In this document: one piece after another, positions 33,251-47,074 of the stretch
Layout of the letters: each line of letters opens with the position of its first letter
How positions within the stretch are numbered: the stretch's first letter is position 1
Assembly: GCA_016795065.1 (NCBI GenBank)
Contig: JAEUIU010000049.1
Location: 1 to 64,000, forward strand
Source of the DNA: Phycisphaerae bacterium
Lineage (GTDB): Bacteria; Planctomycetota; Phycisphaerae; Phycisphaerales; SM1A02
Reading direction: 5' to 3'
DNA: 64,000 nt
Translations under genes and position numbers: made by a program
The notes under the pieces: generated by a model
What the model saw: only the letters and a program-made list of their open reading frames with translations
The model's database searches: none
What the model was told of the DNA's origin: nothing

Positions 33251-33429
33251 GGCCATCGTGCACTCGTCGGAGTGCCCTGCAGAGAACCCACATCTGACGC
33301 CCGGGTCGCGCTCCCACGCGATCCGGGCGTTGTCGCACGGCGCACCTCTGCGGCGGACTTTTCACCGTTCTTCATCTGATTCGTATTCACTTGCACAAAG
33401 ACCAGACTTTGCTTGGCAAGGAGGACTTC

Positions 33430-34185
33430 ATGTCCAGCATTGCACGCACCGTTTGGATTGGCAGTTTCACCGTGAGCGCCGTCGCTGCGCTCGTTACGAC
33501 AGCCACGAGCCTTGGCTACGACAAGTACAGCGACGGTTGCCAGAATTGCCACGGCAGCTTCCTTGGCGGCACCTCACCCCAGGGAACGATCTTCCCCGAG
33601 CAGAACAAGCACCAGATGCACCGCGGTAGCCTCTACATGGCCACCAAGTGCAACCTCTGCCACACGGGAAGCGGCTACAGCAACGTGTACATGGGCAGTT
33701 CCAATGGCACGTCACTCAACCCCGGACTCGGTTGCAACGGCTGCCACGGCCACGATTACGGCGGTTCGGTGGGAGTCAGCGGAGCGGGACTCCGCAAGCA
33801 TCATGCCTCAGCGGGCGTGAGTGTCTGCGCCGATTGCCATACCAACGACCCGATTCCGCTGGGTGAGAACGTCAAGCCGACCTATTACGGCACCACCGAC
33901 ACCAAGTGCAACGACCCCTGCAATGCGGCGCCGGGATTCAAGGAGAACTGGAGCGTCGGCGACACGGTGGGCCTCGACAACGACGGCGATCTCCTCTACG
34001 ACGGCGCCGATCCAGATTGCCAACCCTGCCCTGCCGCCGACCTCACGGGCGACTGTCAGGTCAACGCCGCGGACGTCGCGATTCTGCTTGGCGCCTGGGG
34101 CGGCACCGGTGCCGCCGACCTGAACGGCGACGGCAGCGTGAACGCTGCAGACCTGTCGATCCTTCTCGGAGCGTGGGGCACGTAA
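33430..34185 (+). CDS. Secreted tetrahaem cytochrome c with dockerin-like tail
   Basis: A 251-residue protein with a signal peptide (about 1-30) and four CxxCH sites (C37, C74, C102, C133). After a D-rich stretch (GLDNDGDLLYDGADPDC) comes a dockerin-type I-like pair of calcium-binding repeats, 204-250: DLTGDCQVNAADVAILLGAWG and DLNGDGSVNAADLSILLGAWG. Such tails are abundant on secreted proteins of Phycisphaerae and may anchor or sort them. Here one is attached to an electron carrier. AAGGAGG at 33418-33424 sits 5 bases before the ATG at 33430, the best ribosome-binding site in the window, and decides the start over an in-frame codon at 33391. Confidence 0.88.
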   Translation: MSSIARTVWIGSFTVSAVAALVTTATSLGYDKYSDGCQNCHGSFLGGTSPQGTIFPEQNKHQMHRGSLYMATKCNLCHTGSGYSNVYMGSSNGTSLNPGLGCNGCHGHDYGGSVGVSGAGLRKHHASAGVSVCADCHTNDPIPLGENVKPTYYGTTDTKCNDPCNAAPGFKENWSVGDTVGLDNDGDLLYDGADPDCQPCPAADLTGDCQVNAADVAILLGAWGGTGAADLNGDGSVNAADLSILLGAWGT

Positions 34186-34348
34186 GGGTAACAAGGCGTT
34201 GCCTCTCCAGCCTTTGCGACCAACCGGCTGGCGGTCGTTTCCAACGAAACCGCGATGAGCCGGTTCGAATGGCTGCCTTCCTCTTCCATTGCTGCGGCAT
34301 CTCCCGCAGCGACTTCCGCTGTATGCATGCGCCGCTATCGCGGGTGAG

Positions 34349-34990
34349 ATGGAAAGCTTGCTTCCTGGCCGGGCCATGCGCATGATGGCCCTGGCCATGC
34401 TTCACACGGATCATCACGCCGACCTCCCAGATCGCAGTGACGCAGGCGATCGGGCAGGATCGCCCTCTGCCGGCCTCTTTCGGCAGGTCTACGACGAACT
34501 TCGCTCGCTCGCCCGCCGTCGGTTGCGTCGCGAACGACCTGATCACACGCTGGGCGCGACGGCCCTGGTCCACGAGGTCTACCTCAAGCTCGCCGATCAG
34601 ACGAGAGCCGACTGGCAGGGGCGAACGCACTTTCTTTGCGTTGCCGCCGAGGCGATGCGCCGCGTTCTGATCGATCATGCCCGCGCCCACAGGGCAGCGA
34701 AGCGCGGTGGCGGTCAGGATCTTTGCAGCCCGTTGGAGGTGTCGCCGGTCAGCGGGACAGAGCACGACCGCGACGACGAGTTGTGGGTTGCTGAGATTCT
34801 GGAGGCCTTCGAGCGCGAGCACCCACGGCAGGCGGAGGTGGCCAAGCTTCGCTTTTTTGCAGGGCTCACCGTCGGCGAGATCGCAGAGGCAATCGGTGTC
34901 TCCGACCGGACGGTCAAGAGCGACTGGCGATTCGCCCGGGCGTGGCTTGAGGCCCGCATGGCCGACGGTTCGGATCGCGCGGTCGGATGA
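34349..34990 (+). CDS. Planctomycete-type ECF sigma factor
   Basis: A sigma factor of the ECF-like group common in planctomycetes (about 213 residues). Region 2 is seen in FRQVYDELRSLARRRLRRERPDHTLGATALVHEVYLKL and FLCVAAEAMRRVLIDHARAH, and region 4 in EVAKLRFFAGLTVGEIAEAIGVSDRTVKSDWRFARAWL. Several ATGs near the start (34349, 34376, 34382, 34385) are possible and I kept the longest reasonable one. The stop overlaps the next open frame, which encodes a serine/threonine kinase. Sigma factors of this group are typically encoded with such a kinase, which likely tunes their activity. Confidence 0.88.
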   Translation: MESLLPGRAMRMMALAMLHTDHHADLPDRSDAGDRAGSPSAGLFRQVYDELRSLARRRLRRERPDHTLGATALVHEVYLKLADQTRADWQGRTHFLCVAAEAMRRVLIDHARAHRAAKRGGGQDLCSPLEVSPVSGTEHDRDDELWVAEILEAFEREHPRQAEVAKLRFFAGLTVGEIAEAIGVSDRTVKSDWRFARAWLEARMADGSDRAVG

Positions 34991-35067
34991 CCATTGCCCC
35001 GCGGCGGGCCCGTTGTCGCGTTCACCTCCACGCCATCGACCCGACCACCAACAGAGACGAGGTGACG

Positions 35068-37377
35068 ATGCCGCTCGATCCGGAACGCGTTCGAACAGTC
35101 TTTCTGGAGCTCTGCGACATTGCCGAGCCGAGCCGGAGCATTCGGCTTGGCGAACTCACCAACGGCGATGACGAGCTCCGCATCGAAGTGGACCGGCTGC
35201 TTCGCCACGATCGTTGCGAAGTCCAATTCCTCGACGGGGCTTGGGCCTCTGGTGAGGAAGCGATCGGTCCGTCGCCCCTCATCGCTGGCGACATGACCGC
35301 TTTGGCGACCTCAACCGATCTCCAGATTCCGGGGTTCGACCTCCTCGACCTGATCGGTGAGGGCGGCATGGGCATCGTGTACAGGGCCCAACAGCATCAT
35401 CCGCGTCGAATCGTCGCTCTCAAGCTCGTGCGCCACGGCTTTGCCACGCAGCGCCAAAGGCAGCGGTTCGATGTCGAGACCGATGCTCTTGCGCGACTTC
35501 GGCATCCGGGCATTGCCCAGATCCACGCGGCTGGGCTGGCGACACTGGCGGGCACGACCGTCCCCTACATCGCGATGGAGCTGGTCGAAGGCGATCCCAT
35601 CCTCGTCCATTGCCGAGCCCAGCGGCTCTCGACGAACGCGACGCTGGAGATTCTCGCCAGGGTCTGCGACGGGGTCCAACACGCCCACGCTCACGGGGTC
35701 ATCCACCGCGACCTCAAGGGAAGCAACATCCTCGTGACGCCCTCGGAGGACGGCATCGGACAACCTCGCATCCTCGACTTTGGTGTCGCGCGGATCATCG
35801 GGGATGAGCGCGAAGCGCTGACGATGCCCGGTATCGTGGTCGGGACGATCGGATCGATGAGTCCGGAACAACTCGGCGACGGCTCGGCAGATGTCGACAC
35901 CCGCTCTGACGTCTACGCCCTCGGCGCCCTCCTGTATGAGCTTCTCGCGGGCTCTCCACCCTACGACCTCGAGGGCCGAGGCATCGCCGAAGCGGCCCGC
36001 ATCGTCCGGGAAGAGGAGCCTCGGGGGTTGGGTCAGCTCAACGCGGCCTGGCGCGGAGATATCGAGACGATCGTGCGCACGGCCATGTCCAAGGAGCGGG
36101 AACGGCGATACGTCTCCGCCGCCGCCCTTGCTGCGGACCTTCGACGCTTCCTCGCCGACGAACCCATCGTGGCACGAACGACCACGGTTGCTGATCGCCT
36201 GCGGCGGACGGTCCGCCGACACCGTGTCGCGACGGCATTGAGTGTCGGCGCGATCATTGCCCTCGCGTTCCTGCTGGCGACCATCGTTCGGGCCCGTGGT
36301 CGAGAGGTCATCGCCCTTGAGACGGCCGAACGACGCACCGACGCCCTCATGGACTTTCTGAACGACCTGACCAGGGAGTCGCGAAGTCGGCAACTGGCCG
36401 CGCCGGGGACGCCGTTCGCGACCGCCCTGGATACCCTGAGCGCGAAGCTCCTGCAGACCCAGGCCGGGCCCGGTCGCGAGGCCCGCGAAGCCGAACTGCA
36501 CGAGACCTTGGGGCGGCGCTTTCATATCGATTTGGGCATGTCTGGACAGGCGGAGCGTCACCTAGCCAAGGCGATCGAGTTCGGCCGACTGTCCGGCGCA
36601 TGGGACGAAACGCACACCGCGGGCGTTCGACGCATTCGTGCCGAAGCCCTGTTCACCCTTGAGCGGTACGACGAAGCCGCCCGGGAGTTCGATGCGATCA
36701 TCGAGTACGCCCGGCGGTTCCAGCGCTACACGTACGAAGCCTTCGTCGAACTCCTCGCCGAAGCCGGCGCAGCCCACGCGAGGGCATCCCATCCGGAGCG
36801 GGCGGTCGAACTCGCCCGGGAAGCGCGCACGGTGGCGGTCACCAACGGCGCGAACGTCGACTCGGTCATCCGGGCATACGTGAGCGAGGCCGACGCGCTC
36901 CGCGCGGCCGGTCGCTGGTCCGAAGCCATGGAGTCCCTCGAAGGCGCCCGCGCGGCGTGCGATCCCATGGCGGCACGAACCTATCCGCTTCTCCCCTTCC
37001 ATATCGAGAAGGGATTTCTCCGTCTGGCCAAGGCCCAGGAGCAATGGGACACGATCGACCCGCTCATCGAGCGCTGCATGGCGGCGGCCAGAGCCTATCC
37101 TGGGACCGCCAACGTCTCGTTGGTCAGTGCCCAGGTCGAGGCCGGACAGATTGAGCGCCTGCGAGGAGATCTCGTGGCGGCCGAACGGTGGTATCGGGGA
37201 GCTCTTGACGCCTGCAACGCCGCGGCGGAGTACCGCCCCATCAACGCCCGTCGGGTGCTCGCGGAACTCTGCGCCCTCCTCCGGATCCTGCCGGACCGGG
37301 ACGAGGATCTCATGCACTTTGAAGAGGAGCGGAGCCGCGTTGAAGACCTGGTCGAGGGCATGCCTGGTTCGAACTGA
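35068..37377 (+). CDS. Transmembrane serine/threonine kinase with TPR-like sensor
   Basis: A 769-residue Hanks-type kinase. The N-terminal DPERVRTVFLELCDI...DDELRIEVDRLLRHD segment is the usual lead-in for planctomycete kinases. The catalytic domain (about 88-360) has GEGGMGIVY (98-105), lysine K119 in VALKLV, HRDLKGSN (213-220) and DFGVAR (238-243 region). A transmembrane helix (about 387-407) places roughly 360 TPR-like helical residues outside the cytoplasm. The frame also opens with ATGA at 34987, overlapping the sigma stop. I prefer 35068 because GAGGTGA precedes it and the protein then starts at the conserved block. Confidence 0.9.
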   Translation: MPLDPERVRTVFLELCDIAEPSRSIRLGELTNGDDELRIEVDRLLRHDRCEVQFLDGAWASGEEAIGPSPLIAGDMTALATSTDLQIPGFDLLDLIGEGGMGIVYRAQQHHPRRIVALKLVRHGFATQRQRQRFDVETDALARLRHPGIAQIHAAGLATLAGTTVPYIAMELVEGDPILVHCRAQRLSTNATLEILARVCDGVQHAHAHGVIHRDLKGSNILVTPSEDGIGQPRILDFGVARIIGDEREALTMPGIVVGTIGSMSPEQLGDGSADVDTRSDVYALGALLYELLAGSPPYDLEGRGIAEAARIVREEEPRGLGQLNAAWRGDIETIVRTAMSKERERRYVSAAALAADLRRFLADEPIVARTTTVADRLRRTVRRHRVATALSVGAIIALAFLLATIVRARGREVIALETAERRTDALMDFLNDLTRESRSRQLAAPGTPFATALDTLSAKLLQTQAGPGREAREAELHETLGRRFHIDLGMSGQAERHLAKAIEFGRLSGAWDETHTAGVRRIRAEALFTLERYDEAAREFDAIIEYARRFQRYTYEAFVELLAEAGAAHARASHPERAVELAREARTVAVTNGANVDSVIRAYVSEADALRAAGRWSEAMESLEGARAACDPMAARTYPLLPFHIEKGFLRLAKAQEQWDTIDPLIERCMAAARAYPGTANVSLVSAQVEAGQIERLRGDLVAAERWYRGALDACNAAAEYRPINARRVLAELCALLRILPDRDEDLMHFEEERSRVEDLVEGMPGSN

Positions 37378-37542
37378 TCCCTCGCGGGGTGCGCCTCAAT
37401 GCGGGTTTGCGGGAAATCAGACACTTCTCGCACTTCGGTTGCCCCCATTGAGCCGCAATGTCGCGATTCCATGACCGGAGTGCTGTCGCTCCCGTGTCCG
37501 CTTCGCCGTCCGTTTGCCATTCATTTGCTGGAGAGAACCGCC

Positions 37543-38781
37543 ATGCCGACGAGAGCCGCGTTCCGATCGTTCCTGTCGCTCGCCGAAACAACGAACCGTC
37601 TTTCGACCCGATGGCCCAGTGTGGTCATGGGTGTGGTGTTCGCAAGCGCGGCCCACGCCCAATGGACCGTCATCAACCTGCATCCTCGCGGAGCGACCGA
37701 GTCGCGGGCGTTTGGCCTTGATGGCTTGCAGCAGGTCGGGACAGTAGCACTGGGAGGGGTGAGCCACGCAGCGCTGTGGACCGGGAGCGCTGAGACCTGG
37801 GTCGACTTGCATCCTCCTTCGGCAACGTCCTCCGACGCGTGGGATGTCTCCGAGGGCAGGCAAGTGGGCCGTGCTCGTGTCGGCGGGCACGACAAGCCGT
37901 CGATCTGGAGCGGCACAAATGCGTCGTGGGTGAACCTCACGCCACTCGGGTCGCCGAGCGGAGCGGCCAACGCGATCCATCAGGGCGTTGTGTTCGGATT
38001 CGTCGCCATTGACGGCTGGAACCACGCGGGCGCCTGGACACGCGAGGCGTCCTCCTTCGGTGACATTCATCCCGCGCCCCCTGTGATCCTCTCTCAGGGC
38101 GACGACCTGGACGGCGAGACGTACGTCGGTGTGACCTTTGCCCCCGCCGACGGGCAGAATCACGCTGCCCTCTGGACGGGAGGCGCTGCATCATGGGTGG
38201 ACCTCCATCCGCGTGGAGCGCTCTGGTCATGGGCGAGGGCAACGGACTCCGGACAGCAGGTAGGTTGGACGCACTTGGATGGCCAAGCGCGGGCAAGCCT
38301 CTGGACCGGGACCGCCGAGTCGTGGATTGACCTGTCGCCTTTCTGGGCCGAGGAATCCTGGGCCAACGATGTCAAAGGCGGCCGTCAGGCCGGGTCCGTC
38401 CGGTTCGAAGGCACCTATCTGGCCTGCCTGTGGTCCGGCACGGCGGAATCGTGGGAAGCGTTGCCGCTCGACCTACCCGGCAACTGGGGAGACGCATGGG
38501 CCAATGCCATATCGATGGACGCCACCACCATCTCGGTCGCCGGCTGGGCACACAACCTCGACACGGACCGCCTCGAGGCCATCTTCTGGACGCGGCCCAT
38601 TCAGCCGTTTCTCATCGGGGACGTGAATGACGATTGTACGGTGGATGCCGTGGACCTGAGCATCCTCTTGGGCAACTGGGGCCCGTGGAATCCGACCTCA
38701 CCTGACACCGACTTCACCAACGACGGCGTGACCGACGCCGCCGACCTCAGCGTGATGCTCGGGGCGTGGGGCGGGTGCTGA
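37543..38781 (+). CDS. Secreted repeat protein with dockerin-like tail (beta-propeller-like)
   Basis: A 412-residue exported protein. After a signal peptide ending near AAHAQ come about eight repeats of the form AALWTGSAETWVDLHPxGA...SWAxATDSGQQVGW, 40-50 residues each. This resembles the extracellular HAF-type repeat family and probably folds as a propeller. The C-terminus carries two dockerin-type calcium repeats (GDVNDDCTVDAVDLSILLGNWG and a second ending LSVMLGAWGGC). No enzymatic motif is visible. The frame is open upstream, but GGAGAGA before the ATG at 37543 and the fitting signal peptide support this start. It may be a cell-surface binding protein. Confidence 0.72.
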   Translation: MPTRAAFRSFLSLAETTNRLSTRWPSVVMGVVFASAAHAQWTVINLHPRGATESRAFGLDGLQQVGTVALGGVSHAALWTGSAETWVDLHPPSATSSDAWDVSEGRQVGRARVGGHDKPSIWSGTNASWVNLTPLGSPSGAANAIHQGVVFGFVAIDGWNHAGAWTREASSFGDIHPAPPVILSQGDDLDGETYVGVTFAPADGQNHAALWTGGAASWVDLHPRGALWSWARATDSGQQVGWTHLDGQARASLWTGTAESWIDLSPFWAEESWANDVKGGRQAGSVRFEGTYLACLWSGTAESWEALPLDLPGNWGDAWANAISMDATTISVAGWAHNLDTDRLEAIFWTRPIQPFLIGDVNDDCTVDAVDLSILLGNWGPWNPTSPDTDFTNDGVTDAADLSVMLGAWGGC

Positions 38782-38938
38782 TCCGTCAAGCGGCGCTCTG
38801 GAGCTGCGGCACGTGCAACCGTATGGTGACGGCGTCCCGGTCAATTCGCGGAATTGGTCGGAGTCACCACCCTTCGACTGCGCCCTCACGGTCGTGACAC
38901 GTTCGACCTTCTCATGCCCGACCCACCCGGAGACCACC

Positions 38939-40018
38939 ATGCGTCGCGTTTCTTCCCGTCAGTCGGTCGCCAGCTCAACGTTCTCAAACCACGCGACCTC
39001 CTTTGCGGCACTGCTGACCCTCGGCATCTCGAGCATCGCCCATGCCGACCTGACCTTCGCGACGGCGCCGGCACCAGGCGGCTTCGTGCAGGCATGCGCG
39101 GGGCCGGCCGTCTATGGGGTCGGCTGGCCCGGGGCCGATCTCTTTCTGAGCTACCCCCCGAACTTGGGTGCCGATCTGGTCGAGCAGTCCTTTGTCGGCA
39201 ATGGCATCGGTGAACAGAGCGCGAGCTTCTCTGGGAGGAACATCAACAACAGCGCTCACGTCGTCGCCGGCCTAGGTTTCGTCCACGCCAGCGCGAGCAA
39301 TTCGTCGCCGGACGCTGCGAACTTCCCGACGGCGCTTGGCCAGGGCGGTTGGTCAGAGACCTTCCTCATCGCCAATCCAGCGCTCACCGGTCAGCCGGGG
39401 TTCATGGCCTTCACGCTCGACGTTCATGGGACGCTCTACGCCGAAGGCCTGACTGGCTCGTCGGTCTTCACCGTCACCGCCTACAAGGACGCGGCCCAAC
39501 TGACCGCCAACGAGTTCTACGATCCGGGGAACTCCGACCTGCTGAGCACGAACGTCCAGTACGGCAACTGGGGAATCGCCACCTTCGGCAACCCACCCAC
39601 CGACGGCAAGACCGTCGATGATTCGGTCACCTTCGCCGTTCCCTTCACCTTCGGTACGCCCTTCAAGCTCGGTGTCTACGCGTTCGCTCGCGCTGGTCTC
39701 CGCTCCAGCGGCGGCGTAGGCGGCAGTTCCTCATCGCACACCGATTTCGAAGAGGGCCTGACGTGGGGCGGCATCGCCTCGGTCTACATTGGAACGACAC
39801 CGACGAGTGACTACACCTTCACCAGCGGCAGCGGGATCGACTGGAGCCAGCCGCTGAACGGTTCGGTGCCCTCGGACCTCAACGGCGACGGGAGCGTCAA
39901 TGCCGCGGACCTTGCGATCCTTCTCGGCGGATGGGGGACGTCGGTGGGAGACGTCAATGGCGACGGCACCACCGATGCCGCCGACTTGGCTGAACTGCTC
40001 GGTGCGTGGACGGGTTGA
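38939..40018 (+). CDS. Secreted beta-rich protein with dockerin-like tail
   Basis: A 359-residue exported protein of unknown function. A long signal region (ends near SSIAHA, about residue 36) precedes a glycine/serine/asparagine-rich beta-type domain (GNGIGEQSASFSGRNINNSAHVVAG, and a run rich in GG and SS near 255-265). The last about 50 residues form two dockerin-like repeats, DLNGDGSVNAADLAILLGGWG and DVNGDGTTDAADLAELLGAW. It resembles the PEP-CTERM-type structural proteins of this phylum but ends in the calcium-binding tail instead. It lies directly downstream of the other dockerin-tailed gene, so the two may be expressed together. Confidence 0.68.
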   Translation: MRRVSSRQSVASSTFSNHATSFAALLTLGISSIAHADLTFATAPAPGGFVQACAGPAVYGVGWPGADLFLSYPPNLGADLVEQSFVGNGIGEQSASFSGRNINNSAHVVAGLGFVHASASNSSPDAANFPTALGQGGWSETFLIANPALTGQPGFMAFTLDVHGTLYAEGLTGSSVFTVTAYKDAAQLTANEFYDPGNSDLLSTNVQYGNWGIATFGNPPTDGKTVDDSVTFAVPFTFGTPFKLGVYAFARAGLRSSGGVGGSSSSHTDFEEGLTWGGIASVYIGTTPTSDYTFTSGSGIDWSQPLNGSVPSDLNGDGSVNAADLAILLGGWGTSVGDVNGDGTTDAADLAELLGAWTG

Positions 40019-40329: not shown

Positions 40330-43300
40330 TCACCCCAACCGCGCCGCCGGGCAGCCTGCGTAGATGCCTCCGGCTTCGAGCGTTTCCTGCTTCATGACCA
40401 CGCTGTGCGGTTCGACGTGGGCGCCTTCGCCGATGTCCGCACCGTAGAACACCACGGTGTGATGGCCGACAGTCGCGTTGCGACGAATCACCAAGTGGTC
40501 GATCTTCAGGATGCGATCCTCGAAGGTATGGGCCTGGAAGTTGCACGTCACCGTTGCCCCGTCCTCGAACGTGAGCATGTCCGGATCGACCACCTGGGCG
40601 AAACCGTCACCTAACACGACGTTCTTCCCGATCCGCATCCCCACTGCCCGCAGGAACCAGGTGAGGAAGACGGTGCCCTCGAGGCGCTCAAGGAGATTGC
40701 GGGCGTACATGCTCCAGGCGACGAAGAGGAAGTCCCAGCGGCTGCACCAGCAACTCCATAGCGGGTGCTGCCCCGGCTTCACCCGGGCGATGAGAGCCCA
40801 TTTCAGGAGGACGATCACCCCGCACAGGCTGGCCAGCGCGGCGAAGGTCACGGCGGGCACGATGAGGGCAATGAACACTGCCCCGCCGACCGCTTCCCGA
40901 AGGTCGCTCAGGACGTGGAGCCACCAAAGAAAGACCACGGTCGGCACCACCGGTAGGGCGAATCGAAGGGTCTCCCAGAAAAGTCGCGCGCAATACCGGA
41001 TGAACGGCGGGTCGTGGGTGACGCTTCGGTCCGCCTTCACCACGTCGCGGCGCGGCAGTTCCATCGCCGGATGACCGAACCAGCCGGTGTTGGGGCGGGC
41101 CTTCGCCGGATCGGCCACCGTCGCAACGCCGATGAAGAGGTCGTGCGGATACTCCGCCCCACCCGGCACGACGGCGTGATTCCCGAGGAAGGTGTTCGCC
41201 CCGATCGACGTCGCCCCCAGCGTGATGGTCCCGCGGTGCACCTCGGGTGAACAGAAATAGATGCCATCGGCAAAGAAGCACTCATCGCCGATCGTGACCG
41301 ATTCCGGGACCACGTCGATGATCGTCGAGACCTCGCCTCCGCGCCCGATCCGCATTCCCGCGATGCGCAGCCAGATCGGCCAATAGAGCGAACCACTCAG
41401 CCAGCGCCCGGCGGCATCCACCGCGGCGCTCTTCGACCAGACCCGCAACGCGTCGAACCCCCATCGGCTCATTGTTCCGGTCGCAACGCGGCCCATGCAG
41501 CGAAGCGCGACGGCCTGACTCACGAGACCTAACGGCACGCTGATCAGCGACAGGACCAAAAGGCCGACGGCGGTCCGCCATCCCAGGCTGCCGTCGTACA
41601 GCCAGGCGATGAGTCCGTCTCCATCCATGCCGCCAAGCACTTCCGCAAGCAGGGTCGCCAAGGCGATTGGAAGCCCAAGAAGAAGCGAATGGCCAACCCG
41701 CGCCACCAGCGTCAGGAGTCCATGCCCTACCGGCGAGAAGCCTAGGTCGCGGGGCGGCGCCGGCGCCGCCGACTCGCCAACACGCTGCGCCGGCACGCCG
41801 TCCCAAGCCTCGCCGACGGGAATCGTTCGGTCACTGGGCAGGTAGGCCAACGCCTTGAGTGTTGCCCTCGCTCCCACCGTTGCCCCGCCGCCGACGCCGG
41901 CCCGAACACCGATGGTCGCCTCGGCCCCGATCGACACCGGCGCGACCACGAGATCGCCGTCATCGACATCCATCAGATGGAGTGCCGCCTCCTGCGACAG
42001 CGTCACGTCATCGCCGATGGTCAGGAGATCCCACGCCCCACGGCCGAGCGCGACCCCGCGGTGAACATGCACGCGCTTGCCCACAGTCGCGCCCAGGAAA
42101 CGGAGCGCGCTTCCCATGAAGACGGTGCCCTCGAGGATGCCCCACGGAATCAGTCGGGCGACCTGTTCGACCATCCAATAGCGCACATACGTTGCACTCC
42201 AGACGGGCACCCGAACGGGCTTGGCCTGCCCAATCACCATGCGATGGGTGATCGCGGTGAGCCCGACTGCGATCGGCGTCCACAGGAGCATCGCGAGGGT
42301 GCCGATCGCCGGGAGGAAGAGCGCCGACCACGTCACGCCAAGGGCATCGAAGATGGCGGGCAGCGCGAGGAACGCCATCGCGTACCAAATCCACCCGCTG
42401 ATTGCGACGGAGCCGGCAATGAATCCCGCCTGCACCAAGGTCGCCCGTAGCGGGTGGATTGCCATGCGATGCCGCTCGGGCGTGATCCGCAGCGATTCGC
42501 GCGGCTGCGCATGCGCCGCGGCAAGCGTCGTACATCGCGCTGCCAGGCTCTCGACCGTGCGGGCGTCGTAGAGGTCGCGGACCGTCACGCCGCTCAGGGC
42601 GGCACCGTGGATCGCGTGGCCGCGCAGGAAGCAGATGACGCCGACCGCCGAGAGCGAATCGCCGCCAAGGGTCAGAAAGAAGTCGTCATCGACCGAGAAA
42701 GGCCCACGATGGTGAAGCGACAGGGCGAAGGCTTCGGCGACGAGCCGCTCGAAGGGCGTGGCTGGCTCGCGCAGGGAGGTTGGGCGTTGCAGGGCATCCC
42801 CGGCGGCCGCCAAGATCTCGGGCAATTCCTTTCGATCGAGCTTGCCTCCCACCGAGCGAGGAAGTTTCTCGCAGAAGGCGAACCGACTCGGCACCATGTA
42901 GCTCGGAAGAGATTGGCGGCAATGGGCCTTCAGGGAATCGATGGCAGGGCGATCGTCGATGTCGGCCATTACCACGTGGGCGGCCAGGAGCTGTCCGCTC
43001 GCCGGTCCCTGCACCCGGCAGGCAGCCTCTCGCACTCCAGGGAACGCCGCGAGACACGCCTCGACCGCGCCCAACTCGACGCGATAGCCGCGGAGCTTCA
43101 CCTGGGCGTCGATCCGACCGTGGTACTCGAGGTCCCCTTGGCCATTCCGCCGCACGAGGTCGCCCGTTCGATAAAGACGACCCAACAAGGGATGCTCGAC
43201 GAATCGCGAGGCGGTGACCTCGGGCATGCCGCGATACCCGCGAGCGAGGCTGATGCCGCCAATGCAGAGTTCACCTAACTCGCCGTCGGCCACTTCGTTG

Positions 43301-44406
43301 AGCGAGTCATCGACGACGTGCCCGACGTTGCCCCGCACCGGCACGCCGATCGTGACTGGCTTGCCTGCTTCGATGCGGGTCCGTACCACCGTCACCGTGC
43401 ACTCGGTCGGTCCGTAGCCGTTCTCCAGCCTTCGCCCGCGACTCCACCGATCGGCCAGGTCCTGCGGAAGTGCCTCGCCCCCGACGTAGAGAAGCGTGAG
43501 GAGCGGAAGTGCCCGATGCGGCTCGTCGCACCCGGTGGTCCGAAGGAGCGTGGGTGGCGGACAGAGAACGGTGATGCGTTCGCGCTGAAGGAACGGGACC
43601 AAATCCGGCCCGAGCCGCACCGTCTCATCATCCAACGGCACAAGCGCCGCTCCCACCGCGAAGGCGAGCCACGTCTCCTCCAACGACGAGTCGTACGCGG
43701 GCGACGAGCATTGGGCGACGCGATCCTCGCAACCGAGTGCGAAGTGCTCGACATCCGAGTCGACCAGGTTCGCGATGCTGCGGTGCTCGATCTCGACACC
43801 CTTTGGCTTGCCGGTCGTGCCGGAGGTGTAGATCAGGTAGGCAAGTCGCGAAGGGCCGACCGTCGGCGTCGATGCGGCGATCGCGGCCACCTCGGGCTCC
43901 TCGACGACCCGGTGCACGTCGAGCATGTGCTCCACTGCCACTCCATGTGCAGCGAGCCACGCCCGTCCCATGGCGTCGGTCAACAGGACCTTGACCTCGG
44001 CGTCATCCAGAATTGCCCGAATATGGTCGGGCGGGAACTTCGGATCGATGCAGGTGAAAGCCGCTCCGGCGGAGAGAACCGCTAGCTGGGCGGCGTAGAG
44101 GGAAGGTGTGTCGCGACCGAGGACGATTGCGACGATCGGTTCGTCAGCGGCGGGATCGAGTCGGGCGCGGACCGCCCGAGCCATGGATTGGGCAGCGCGG
44201 TCAAGTTCGCCATAGGTCCAACGGATGCGTTCGGGACGCCCGAAGCCTGGCGGCACCTCAACAGCGATCCGATCGGGATGAGCCGCCACCGTGGCCGCGA
44301 ATCGCTGGTGCAGCAGCGGGAGGGCGAGCGGGACGTCGGACTGCCCATCGCTCTCGGACAAAGGCCTCATCGCGCTTGTCGGAGAACTCGCTTCAGGGGC
44401 CCTCAT
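40330..44406 (-). CDS. Pls/PosA-type non-ribosomal peptide synthetase
   Basis: A 1358-residue synthetase. The adenylation domain (about 22-527) has core motif A3 YTSGTTGKPKG, A5 NGYGPTE, A7 YRTGDL, A8 GRIDAQVKLRGYRVE and A10 GGKLDRKEL. A carrier domain with GGDSL follows (phosphopantetheine serine near residue 584). The second half alternates transmembrane helices with three left-handed beta-helix acyltransferase-like domains (hexapeptide runs such as SIGAEATIGVRAGVGGG and NATVGHHTVVFYGADIG). This is the layout of epsilon-poly-L-lysine synthase (Pls) and PosA relatives, which polymerise one amino acid at the membrane. The monomer is not deducible here. The start (44406) follows the SET gene's stop by 13 bases. 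Confidence 0.88.
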   Translation of the reverse strand: MRAPEASSPTSAMRPLSESDGQSDVPLALPLLHQRFAATVAAHPDRIAVEVPPGFGRPERIRWTYGELDRAAQSMARAVRARLDPAADEPIVAIVLGRDTPSLYAAQLAVLSAGAAFTCIDPKFPPDHIRAILDDAEVKVLLTDAMGRAWLAAHGVAVEHMLDVHRVVEEPEVAAIAASTPTVGPSRLAYLIYTSGTTGKPKGVEIEHRSIANLVDSDVEHFALGCEDRVAQCSSPAYDSSLEETWLAFAVGAALVPLDDETVRLGPDLVPFLQRERITVLCPPPTLLRTTGCDEPHRALPLLTLLYVGGEALPQDLADRWSRGRRLENGYGPTECTVTVVRTRIEAGKPVTIGVPVRGNVGHVVDDSLNEVADGELGELCIGGISLARGYRGMPEVTASRFVEHPLLGRLYRTGDLVRRNGQGDLEYHGRIDAQVKLRGYRVELGAVEACLAAFPGVREAACRVQGPASGQLLAAHVVMADIDDRPAIDSLKAHCRQSLPSYMVPSRFAFCEKLPRSVGGKLDRKELPEILAAAGDALQRPTSLREPATPFERLVAEAFALSLHHRGPFSVDDDFFLTLGGDSLSAVGVICFLRGHAIHGAALSGVTVRDLYDARTVESLAARCTTLAAAHAQPRESLRITPERHRMAIHPLRATLVQAGFIAGSVAISGWIWYAMAFLALPAIFDALGVTWSALFLPAIGTLAMLLWTPIAVGLTAITHRMVIGQAKPVRVPVWSATYVRYWMVEQVARLIPWGILEGTVFMGSALRFLGATVGKRVHVHRGVALGRGAWDLLTIGDDVTLSQEAALHLMDVDDGDLVVAPVSIGAEATIGVRAGVGGGATVGARATLKALAYLPSDRTIPVGEAWDGVPAQRVGESAAPAPPRDLGFSPVGHGLLTLVARVGHSLLLGLPIALATLLAEVLGGMDGDGLIAWLYDGSLGWRTAVGLLVLSLISVPLGLVSQAVALRCMGRVATGTMSRWGFDALRVWSKSAAVDAAGRWLSGSLYWPIWLRIAGMRIGRGGEVSTIIDVVPESVTIGDECFFADGIYFCSPEVHRGTITLGATSIGANTFLGNHAVVPGGAEYPHDLFIGVATVADPAKARPNTGWFGHPAMELPRRDVVKADRSVTHDPPFIRYCARLFWETLRFALPVVPTVVFLWWLHVLSDLREAVGGAVFIALIVPAVTFAALASLCGVIVLLKWALIARVKPGQHPLWSCWCSRWDFLFVAWSMYARNLLERLEGTVFLTWFLRAVGMRIGKNVVLGDGFAQVVDPDMLTFEDGATVTCNFQAHTFEDRILKIDHLVIRRNATVGHHTVVFYGADIGEGAHVEPHSVVMKQETLEAGGIYAGCPAARLG

Positions 44407-44419
44407 GATGCTGACCGGT

Positions 44420-45007
44420 TCATGACGACCTGGTCTGGCGTTCCACGAGGTAGCTCGCAACCGTCCCCGCCAATCGCTTTCGATCGGCCGAGGCGAGGTT
44501 GCTGTAGCCGCCGATCACCCGACCGCCGCAATGGCCACAACGGCAGGTGAAGGGCTCGGCCATCACCGCCTCGGTCGTGTTGTAGTCAAAGGTGATCTCG
44601 TCGCCGGGGTCGATGGCAGTGAGGGCGGTGAGGACTGGTCCTCGAAACGCGGCATTGGGCTGGCAACTGTGGTTGAGGAAGCGCCACGCCGCGCGAACCG
44701 AATCCTCGGGGATGCCAGGCGCGGGCTGGACGTGCAGGTCAGCGCCGACCTGCACCGAGTAGCGCGATGGCGTGTCGCTCAGCAGACCCTCCAGGACCAG
44801 GACAACCTCACCTGCCTCGAAGCGAGAGCCGGCGCGAAGGCACCGGTGGTCGCTCGAGCAGTCGATGTGAAGGCTCCGTCTGGCCCGAAGGATGCGGGAG
44901 ACGGAGGGCGAATTCGCGGGCGCGAGAGCGGTTGCCGATGCGAGCGACTTGTCGGAGGCGCTCGAGTCACCGGACCGCTGCCCTCGCAGCGTTGTCAACA
45001 GACTCAT
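44420..45007 (-). CDS. SET-domain protein (putative lysine methyltransferase)
   Basis: A 195-residue protein with the SET core: RFLNHSCQPNA (109-119) and DEITFDYN (136-143), the two strands that make the SAM/lysine pseudoknot, and a post-SET-like CRCGHC (155-160). The N-terminal part (CLRAGSRFEAGEVVLVLEG) matches the first SET strands. SET enzymes transfer methyl groups to protein lysines. Its gene ends 13 bases before the Pls-type synthetase on the same strand, so they form an operon. The pairing suggests its target might be the synthetase or a lysine-containing product, which is inference. The N-terminal 35 residues are polar and unconserved. Confidence 0.8.
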   Translation of the reverse strand: MSLLTTLRGQRSGDSSASDKSLASATALAPANSPSVSRILRARRSLHIDCSSDHRCLRAGSRFEAGEVVLVLEGLLSDTPSRYSVQVGADLHVQPAPGIPEDSVRAAWRFLNHSCQPNAAFRGPVLTALTAIDPGDEITFDYNTTEAVMAEPFTCRCGHCGGRVIGGYSNLASADRKRLAGTVASYLVERQTRSS

Positions 45008-45586: not shown

Positions 45587-47074
45587 ATGTTTCCAACAAC
45601 CCCCCCTTCAGTTCAGCAAACGATCCAACGAGTCACCAATCTCCTCAATGCCGGGCAGGTGGCTGCAGCGGAGACGGAGTTGGCTGATCTCACCCGCCTT
45701 GCTCCCAACAGCGTCGACACGTTTCGACTCCGAGGCCAGCTCCGCAGCATGCAGGGGCGAATTCAGGAAGCCGAGCGCGCATTCCATGCGGCATTCCGCT
45801 TGGCCCCTCGCGACGTGCCGCTCCTTCTGGCCATTGCACAGTTCCATTACCGTGTGGGTCGCTTTCAGGTCATGATGGAAGTGCTTGAGGAAGCGCTCAA
45901 GATCCAGCCGGGCAACCCCTCCGTCATCGGCATGATGGCCCGAGCGCGTCGCCGGCAGGGCCAACCCAAGCTCGCCCTCAAGCTCCTCGAACGCATTCCG
46001 GACTCGCCGGTGTCGGCCATCACCGCGGCATGGGCCCACTACGATCTGGGGGAGTGGGAGCAGGCCTTGAAGGCCATTCACTCGATCTGCGAGGGCCCCG
46101 ACGCCGGTGCGATCAACAGGTATCAGGCCTTCCAGATTCGCGGTCTTTCCCTGGAGCGCCTTGGTCGCTACGACGCTGCCATGGTCAGCTACATCACAGC
46201 GAAGCAGGCTGTCCCGCTGCAATACGACTTCCAACAATACACCCAGTGGGTCCGCTCGGCAGGCGAGGTCTATAGCGAGGCCGCTTGGCCCTCGATGGCC
46301 CGTTCCAGCAACACCAGCGAAATCCCTGTCTTTATCGTCGCTCTGCCTCGATCGGGGACGACGCTGCTGGAGGCAATCATCAGTTCCCATCCCCAAGCCG
46401 CCGACGCCGGAGAACTCGAGGTCGTGCGGCGAATGGTGGGCGAGATCATGAAGCAGGAGCTCGCCGATAGTTGGCCGAGGGTCGCTCCGACGTACCTGAC
46501 GTCCGAGGTCCTCGACCGTTGGGCCGCTCGCTACCTCGAAGCGTCGACGTCCTTCGGTCCCAGTGCGCTGCGAATCGTCGACAAGAACCTGTTGAACTGG
46601 GTCTACGTGGGACTGCTCGCCCAGATGTTCCCGAAGGCTCGCTTCATTCACATTGACCGAGATCCGTTGGACGTCGGCATCTCCTGCTTCGAACGCCTTC
46701 CCGCCGTGGTGGTGCCCTGGTCGGCCGACTTGATCCAGCTCGGCACGGTCATTCGGATCTACCGGGAGCTGATGGAGCATTGGAAGCGGTTGCTTCCCGG
46801 TCGCATTCACACCGTCCAGTACGAGCAACTGGTGCGCAACCAAGAGGGGGAGATGCGCAAGATCCTCGACTTCCTTGGCTTGCCTTGGGATCCTGCGGTC
46901 TTGGCGCATCACCACAGCAAGGATCGGGGCGGCAGCGAAGGTCGTCAGGCGCCGCTGCCGACGCTCGGTAGCGAACAGGCCTCCAAACCCGTTTACGACT
47001 CGTCGATCGGACGGGGAGCGAGGTTCGGCGCGGCGCTCGACCCCCTCCGAAAGGCGATCGCAGGCGAGGTCTGA
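45587..47074 (+). CDS. TPR-sulfotransferase
   Basis: A 495-residue protein with an N-terminal TPR region of about 230 residues (for example MQGRIQEAERAFHAAFRLAP, VLEEALKIQPGNP) followed by a PAPS-dependent sulfotransferase domain. The 5'-phosphosulfate loop is LPRSGTTLLEAII (253-265). IHIDRDPLDVGISCF is the 3'-phosphate-binding block, and VQYEQLVRN with ILDFLGLPWDP closes the family pattern. No signal peptide is seen, so it may act inside the cell or at the inner membrane on a saccharide or protein tyrosine. The acceptor is unknown. A strong terminator lies 80 bases downstream. Confidence 0.88.
   Translation: MFPTTPPSVQQTIQRVTNLLNAGQVAAAETELADLTRLAPNSVDTFRLRGQLRSMQGRIQEAERAFHAAFRLAPRDVPLLLAIAQFHYRVGRFQVMMEVLEEALKIQPGNPSVIGMMARARRRQGQPKLALKLLERIPDSPVSAITAAWAHYDLGEWEQALKAIHSICEGPDAGAINRYQAFQIRGLSLERLGRYDAAMVSYITAKQAVPLQYDFQQYTQWVRSAGEVYSEAAWPSMARSSNTSEIPVFIVALPRSGTTLLEAIISSHPQAADAGELEVVRRMVGEIMKQELADSWPRVAPTYLTSEVLDRWAARYLEASTSFGPSALRIVDKNLLNWVYVGLLAQMFPKARFIHIDRDPLDVGISCFERLPAVVVPWSADLIQLGTVIRIYRELMEHWKRLLPGRIHTVQYEQLVRNQEGEMRKILDFLGLPWDPAVLAHHHSKDRGGSEGRQAPLPTLGSEQASKPVYDSSIGRGARFGAALDPLRKAIAGEV

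Follow-up and report, generated by a model that had tools for sequence, protein, structure and literature searches.

Here, we describe a two-gene locus in which a SET-domain methyltransferase related to BurB is encoded directly ahead of a synthetase resembling the Pls/PosA enzymes, which make cationic homopolymers. Comparison across genomes establishes that the BurB-type methyltransferase is inherited together with one distinct subfamily of Pls-like synthetases, whose adenylation pocket is invariant and predicted to be enlarged and acidic. The adjacent pair, which recurs across distant phyla, probably makes a methyl-modified cationic amino-acid product. The locus lies in the 64-kb stretch of DNA analysed here (the window), and its features are as follows.

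44420–45007 (−): BurB-like SET-domain methyltransferase gene, first gene of the pair, read from 45007 to 44420, 195 aa (ORF confirmed in the ORF listing of the window; Pfam SET; BurB profile and fold match)
44520–44669 (−): SET signature and substrate/zinc segment, residues ~113–162 (conservation; alignment to the BurB profile)
44407–44419 (−): intergenic gap of 13 nt between the SET stop codon and the synthetase ATG (sequence; most relatives have a short gap or an overlap here)
40330–44406 (−): Pls-like synthetase gene, read from 44406 to 40330, 1358 aa counted from its ATG, with adenylation, carrier (PCP) and membrane polymerase-like domains (ORF, Pfam, TIGR02353; orthologues 44–56% identical over nearly full length)
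42802–44316 (−): adenylation domain, ~aa 31–535 (Pfam AMP-binding and AMP-binding_C)
42517–42750 (−): carrier domain, ~aa 553–630, with the phosphopantetheine serine Ser584 in LGGDSLSA (Pfam PP-binding, 21.5 bits)
40333–42429 (−): C-terminal membrane domain, ~aa 660–1358, three repeats of a helix pair and a left-handed beta-helix (TIGR02353; AlphaFold)
41767–42096 (−): beta-helix 1, ~aa 771–880 (AlphaFold model residues 132–241)
41056–41361 (−): beta-helix 2, ~aa 1016–1117 (AlphaFold model residues ~377–478)
40333–40644 (−): beta-helix 3, ~aa 1255–1358, with Q1291-x-H1293-xxx-D1297 (AlphaFold model; residue comparison)

Both open reading frames are as an earlier note on this DNA described them, adjacent and 13 bases apart on one strand, and from this gap the two genes are probably co-transcribed. 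The flanking genes, a TPR-sulfotransferase fusion (45587–47074, +) transcribed divergently from the SET gene and a dockerin-type protein (38813–40018, +), lie on the opposite strand, and the pair therefore forms an isolated two-gene unit. Scans of the locus for promoters, terminators and Rfam families returned nothing useful, and a search of the genome found this SET-domain gene only. The surroundings have features of their own: the sulfotransferase fusion is not conserved as a neighbour in relatives; a repeated C-terminal dockerin/EF-hand-like motif of the type DLNGDGSVNAADLxxLLGxWG ends the flanking dockerin-type protein and two others (33391–34185 and 37399–38781, both +), the first of which also carries CxxCH motifs; and, judged from translations, an ECF-type sigma factor-like gene directly precedes a gene for a 796-aa TPR protein kinase-like protein (34289–37377, +).

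The pairing extends well beyond the window. Full-length synthetase relatives in the same family are 44–56% identical, and a SET gene stands immediately upstream in 27 of 31 such loci. Across 181 genomes of the family, 40 carry both genes, 1 the SET gene only, 16 the synthetase only and 124 neither (Fisher p 6e-26). When an alignment covering the pocket region was used to search bacterial genomes, the best 80 loci spanned Planctomycetota, Verrucomicrobiota, Acidobacteriota, Actinomycetota, Pseudomonadota, Myxococcota, Armatimonadota, Chloroflexota and Gemmatimonadota, although the phylum labels of metagenome bins may be wrong for individual loci; 55 of these 80 have the SET gene just upstream on the same strand, and among the remainder at least six lie on contigs that end before the SET position. 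An independent test used the C-terminal half of the synthetase alone as query against 200 actinomycete genomes and retrieved 12 loci at 658–706 bits, all other relatives scoring 234 or less. The SET profile identified the same 12 genomes at 217–247 bits and nothing else above 109, so that 12 genomes have both genes, 188 have neither and none has one alone. The gap between the genes is short or overlapping in most relatives, and the divergence of one partner follows that of the other (rho 0.58; 0 of 999 permutations). Chance adjacency, or a pairing confined to this locality, is rejected by the family, wider and actinomycete counts (12/12 in the last) together with the Fisher test. A complete absence of the pair from relatives, which the earlier note had named as fatal to its idea, is not what is seen.

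Adjacency is nevertheless not universal, as a spacing of ~14 kb in Streptomyces plasmids makes clear. Among plasmid records, the only four with a SET gene of this type are the four with the closest synthetases, and in the two read in detail the SET gene lies ~10–14 kb from the subfamily synthetase. In both Streptomyces plasmid loci, L231 (NZ_CP108254.1:78000-118000) and L232, a SulP anion transporter gene directly follows the SET gene; the other plasmid neighbours, considered as hints to a pathway, comprised only regulators and unknown proteins. Likewise, relatives' loci revealed no conserved neighbour besides the SET gene, monomer-making and sulfur-metabolism genes included. The SET gene is also no general companion of Pls-type enzymes, a possibility rejected on the finding that none of 20 true Pls-type paralogues in the carrier genomes has one nearby (0/20); where readable, the adenylation codes of these paralogues are DAESIGTVVK, DFECLSVVTK, DFECLSAVTK and DFEYLGTVTK.

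The synthetase itself has a familiar architecture but an unfamiliar affiliation. Pfam recognizes AMP-binding (E 9e-68), AMP-binding_C, PP-binding and hexapeptide-repeat domains, and the carrier serine, Ser584, is kept in all 79 sequences of the wider set that have a residue at that position. AlphaFold models the C-terminal domain with good confidence (pLDDT 91.2, pTM 0.91) as three repeats of long membrane-type helices and a left-handed beta-helix, and its closest solved folds are hexapeptide acyltransferases (Z ~12–13), which together justify the earlier label of a three beta-helix enzyme. The published model of the PosA C-terminal domain agrees with this predicted architecture (PMC10522769). 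Epsilon-poly-L-lysine synthetase and PosA thus resemble the window synthetase in having adenylation and carrier domains followed by a membrane domain that contains six helices along with three beta-helices, and Gln1291, His1293 and Asp1297 of the window synthetase are common to true Pls-type paralogues. Membership of the family is another matter. Against TIGR02353, the model of the Pls/PosA terminal domain, the C-terminal half aligns over positions 18–695 of 695, yet its score of 367.8 bits does not reach the curated equivalog cut-off (423.1); members of the subfamily in other genomes score 348–379 bits (contig-cut fragments lower), whereas the true Pls-type paralogues reach 529–804. Ordinary Pls/PosA members are only ~30–34% identical to the window synthetase, and PosA is encoded as a single-gene operon, without the SET neighbour that the window subfamily often has. 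Because it falls under the cut-off and its code matches none known for a monomer, we place the synthetase outside the Pls/PosA family, as a separate subfamily that by sequence resembles the cationic homopolymer synthetases; the architectural half of the label 'Pls/PosA-type' therefore stands and the family half does not.

This position below the cut-off means that polymerization is argued by analogy. An improbable alternative is that the C-terminal domain makes no polymer and instead passes one cationic amino acid on to an acceptor, in the membrane or a small molecule, which would suit both the consistently sub-threshold scores of the subfamily and the single-step acyltransferases that are its closest solved folds. 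The three-repeat architecture and conserved residues are, however, those of the polymer makers (PMC10522769).

The adenylation pocket is the most distinctive part of the protein. Its code residues, D239, S240, E243, C282, Y307, G309, G330, V338, T339 and K522, read DSECYGGVTK, a sequence found in 31 of 31 same-family synthetases and in the Streptomyces plasmid synthetase. It also occurs in 78 of the 81 sequences of the wider set (two have F at one position and one lacks the last), where the invariance is partly selected, since the 80 loci were picked with the pocket alignment; the 31 family members and the actinomycete set were not. Asp239 and Glu243 correspond to Asp217 and Glu221 of PosA, so that positions 1 and 3 of a cationic-amino-acid pocket are kept, with Asp to bind the alpha-amine and Glu to bind the cation of the side chain. 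The study of PosA, whose code is DMEHNGTVSK, reports that these two residues bind the two amines of the substrate and that position 2 sets side-chain length, with Phe for Dap, Met for Orn and Ala for Lys (PMC10522769). The window enzyme has Ser at position 2 and Gly at position 7 and, with the Asp and Glu retained, its pocket is therefore predicted to be acidic and larger. A large cationic amino acid is accordingly the likely monomer given the retained side-chain-binding Glu, and the earlier expectation of a cationic monomer, for which adenylation specificity was the proposed check, survives.

The expectation of lysine does not. DSECYGGVTK, unlike the DAESIGTVVK or DMEHNGTVSK of Pls/PosA enzymes, matches no known Lys, Orn, Dab, Dap or beta-Lys synthetase code, and its one counterpart is a Bdellovibrionales homologue studied by Patel and Gulick (2023), which has the same ten residues and probably belongs to the same subfamily. 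The adenylation domain of that enzyme, the only part assayed, activated L-Arg modestly, and its activity was not raised by any of four diamino acids; the authors suspected that the substrate is a larger analogue (PMC10522769). The Bdellovibrionales gene was not among the best 80 loci of the bacterial genome scan. An acidic, enlarged pocket and this assay make a plain lysine polymer unlikely, and lysine as the default monomer is rejected on the code (Lys-type paralogues have DAESIGTVVK) and the published assay. The lysine homopolymer of a Pls-type enzyme, which the earlier note took as its model, is thus not supported, given a code that is not of the Lys type, a C-terminal domain below the cut-off and L-Arg activation by an adenylation domain of identical code.

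We turn now to the methyltransferase, which is a clear SET protein (Pfam SET 37.0 bits; cut-off 22.4). Its signature segment, comprising the NHSC residues His113 and Cys115, Phe140, Tyr142, Thr145-Glu146, Pro152-Phe153 and Cys155/157/160, is 91–100% identical among 54 linked SET proteins and that of the window. When a profile built from 29 linked SET proteins was compared with all PDB chains, BurB came first (69.9 bits, E 2e-18), and the best histone methyltransferase scored 57.6 bits. The predicted structure (pLDDT 86.9) likewise has BurB as its best fold (Foldseek 3e-10; VIA Z 14.1, rmsd 3.8 over 131 residues), other structures reaching Z 12.1 at most. By sequence and modelled fold, the SET partner is therefore closest to BurB rather than to the histone lysine methyltransferases MLL, ASH1L and SETD2, which share the SET fold, catalytic Tyr, NHSC motif and post-SET cysteines but are lower on every measure (profile ≤57.6 bits, Z ≤12.1) and are not matched by the genomic context of the window gene. 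BurB adds a methyl group to the sulfur atom of free methionine, giving S-methylmethionine (PMC12542666), and the earlier premise that SET enzymes act on lysine was for this reason too narrow. The more distant SET relatives in other actinomycetes lie among NRPS or PKS genes, which fits small-molecule chemistry.

In databases, the Streptomyces homologue is annotated as a protein-lysine N-methyltransferase; this, together with the short gap, strict adjacency and co-divergence of the pair, could be read as a sign that the SET enzyme methylates the synthetase or some other protein. We consider such a regulatory role very improbable: profile, Foldseek and structural Z all place the enzyme nearer BurB than any protein lysine methyltransferase, and none of the further Pls-type synthetases checked in the carrier genomes has a SET gene beside it.

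A closer parallel with BurB would have the SET enzyme make S-methylmethionine, a cationic sulfonium amino acid that could bind Glu243 and be activated by the synthetase. BurB is the closest solved relative in both sequence and fold and makes precisely this compound (PMC12542666), and a thiotemplate assembly line is loaded with sulfonium acids of the BurB pathway (PMC7496086). We nevertheless regard this route as quite improbable, as the shared features are accompanied by marked differences. BurB and the methionine S-methyltransferases (MSMT) have in common with the window protein the segments [Y/H][S/T]xQx5H, HSC, Y, TE and CxC (PMC12542666), and Tyr142, His113, Val148 and Ala150 map to BurB Tyr124, His93, Val130 and Met132, the catalytic-site Tyr142 and His113 being conserved among linked SET proteins. 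BurB is, however, only ~25% identical, and its Ser88 and Met122 are replaced by Trp108, which is invariant, and Phe140, which is 98% conserved. This suggests that methionine is probably not the substrate, although the S88A variant of BurB retains >60% activity; BurB grips methionine through main-chain contacts (PMC12542666). Furthermore, the window enzyme partners a Pls-like synthetase and not the DMSP pathway, and relatives' loci hold no conserved sulfur-metabolism neighbour. S-methylmethionine also has no side-chain nucleophile for polymerization, and subfamily members without the SET gene keep the adenylation code.

The loci without a SET gene are informative in their own right. About one quarter of informative synthetase loci have none, and several genomes (among them G134, G136, G144, G215, G218, G220 and G221) contain no SET gene of this type, linked or unlinked. 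In the subfamily tree, the deepest branches carry the SET gene whereas several separate lineages lack it, and the adenylation code is unchanged between loci with and without it. No replacement enzyme was seen upstream in the SET-less loci, and the only synthetase residues that track SET loss fall in variable, unremarkable columns. SET-less loci and genomes with an unchanged code argue against the SET product as an obligatory monomer; they favour a role in tailoring, or else a monomer that can be had by more than one route. In the strict form of the former, the synthetase would use an ordinary cationic amino acid (L-Arg or an analogue) to build an unmethylated product that an optional SET enzyme then methylates. 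We judge this rather unlikely, since L-Arg is only modestly activated by the one tested adenylation domain that has this code, for which its authors suspected a larger analogue (PMC10522769), and since the BurB-like substrate contacts suit a free amino acid; many of the SET-less lineages are, moreover, incomplete metagenome bins.

The pathway that we favour, at about even chances, is a two-gene operon in which a cationic amino acid is activated, condensed to an oligomer and methylated by the SET enzyme. The adenylation domain would activate a large, Arg-sized cationic amino acid (candidates are an N-methylated form of Lys or Orn, or else an analogue of Arg), which would then be loaded onto Ser584 of the carrier. 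The beta-helix membrane domain may join such units, giving a short cationic homo-oligomer in the manner of the epsilon-poly-lysine and delta-poly-ornithine synthetases. Methyl groups from S-adenosylmethionine would be added by the SET enzyme, with the free monomer as the most likely acceptor and the finished product as the alternative. Support for activation, loading, condensation and SET methylation comes from linked inheritance, from the acidic pocket and the carrier, and from the conserved residues of the membrane domain. Counting against the oligomer pathway, known cationic homopolymers are joined by an isopeptide bond that neither Arg nor a fully methylated side-chain amine can form, and we know of no product or enzyme activity reported for any complete SET–synthetase pair. 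A methylated cationic product remains the leading idea, with the conserved pairing and likely cationic monomer in its favour, now shorn of lysine and of membership of the Pls family.

Epsilon-poly-lysine-type cationic homopolymers serve as food preservatives and cell-penetrating agents, and those characterized to date are, to our knowledge, built from plain diamino acids. Open-access literature yielded no description of SET enzymes with poly-lysine, NAPAA or N-methyl polymers. It is possible, and we advance it tentatively, that the module of a free-amino-acid SET enzyme and a Pls-like synthetase defines an undescribed class of natural product, a methylated cationic homo-oligomer, in planctomycetes, verrucomicrobia, acidobacteria, proteobacteria and actinomycetes, which would also explain the orphan DSECYGGVTK enzyme. 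The failure of the Bdellovibrionales enzyme with ordinary diamino acids may, on this hypothesis, reflect a need for a methylated or larger substrate. The predicted role of the SET partner would also extend the metabolic use of this fold beyond methionine S-methyltransferases. The methyltransferase-equipped subfamily occurs in cultivable Kutzneria, Amycolatopsis and Streptomyces and, with an invariant code and its own methyltransferase in such strains, the product can therefore be sought directly.

Finally, variations on the SET gene were seen elsewhere. Some planctomycetes have two tandem SET genes before the synthetase (L107:7976-8653 and L107:8657-9364; also L064), which could represent two methylation steps or a redundant copy. 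At L223:7105-7638 (+), a BurB-like SET gene overlaps a gene for a thiamine-diphosphate enzyme and is followed by a Glu/Leu/Phe/Val dehydrogenase gene, with a ketosynthase gene near. At L226:6257-6781 (+) and L227:6552-7127 (−), a more distant SET gene lies between NRPS genes; the code of one adenylation domain nearby, DLYNMSLIWK, is cysteine-like, which hints at a further natural-product pathway with a SET enzyme.
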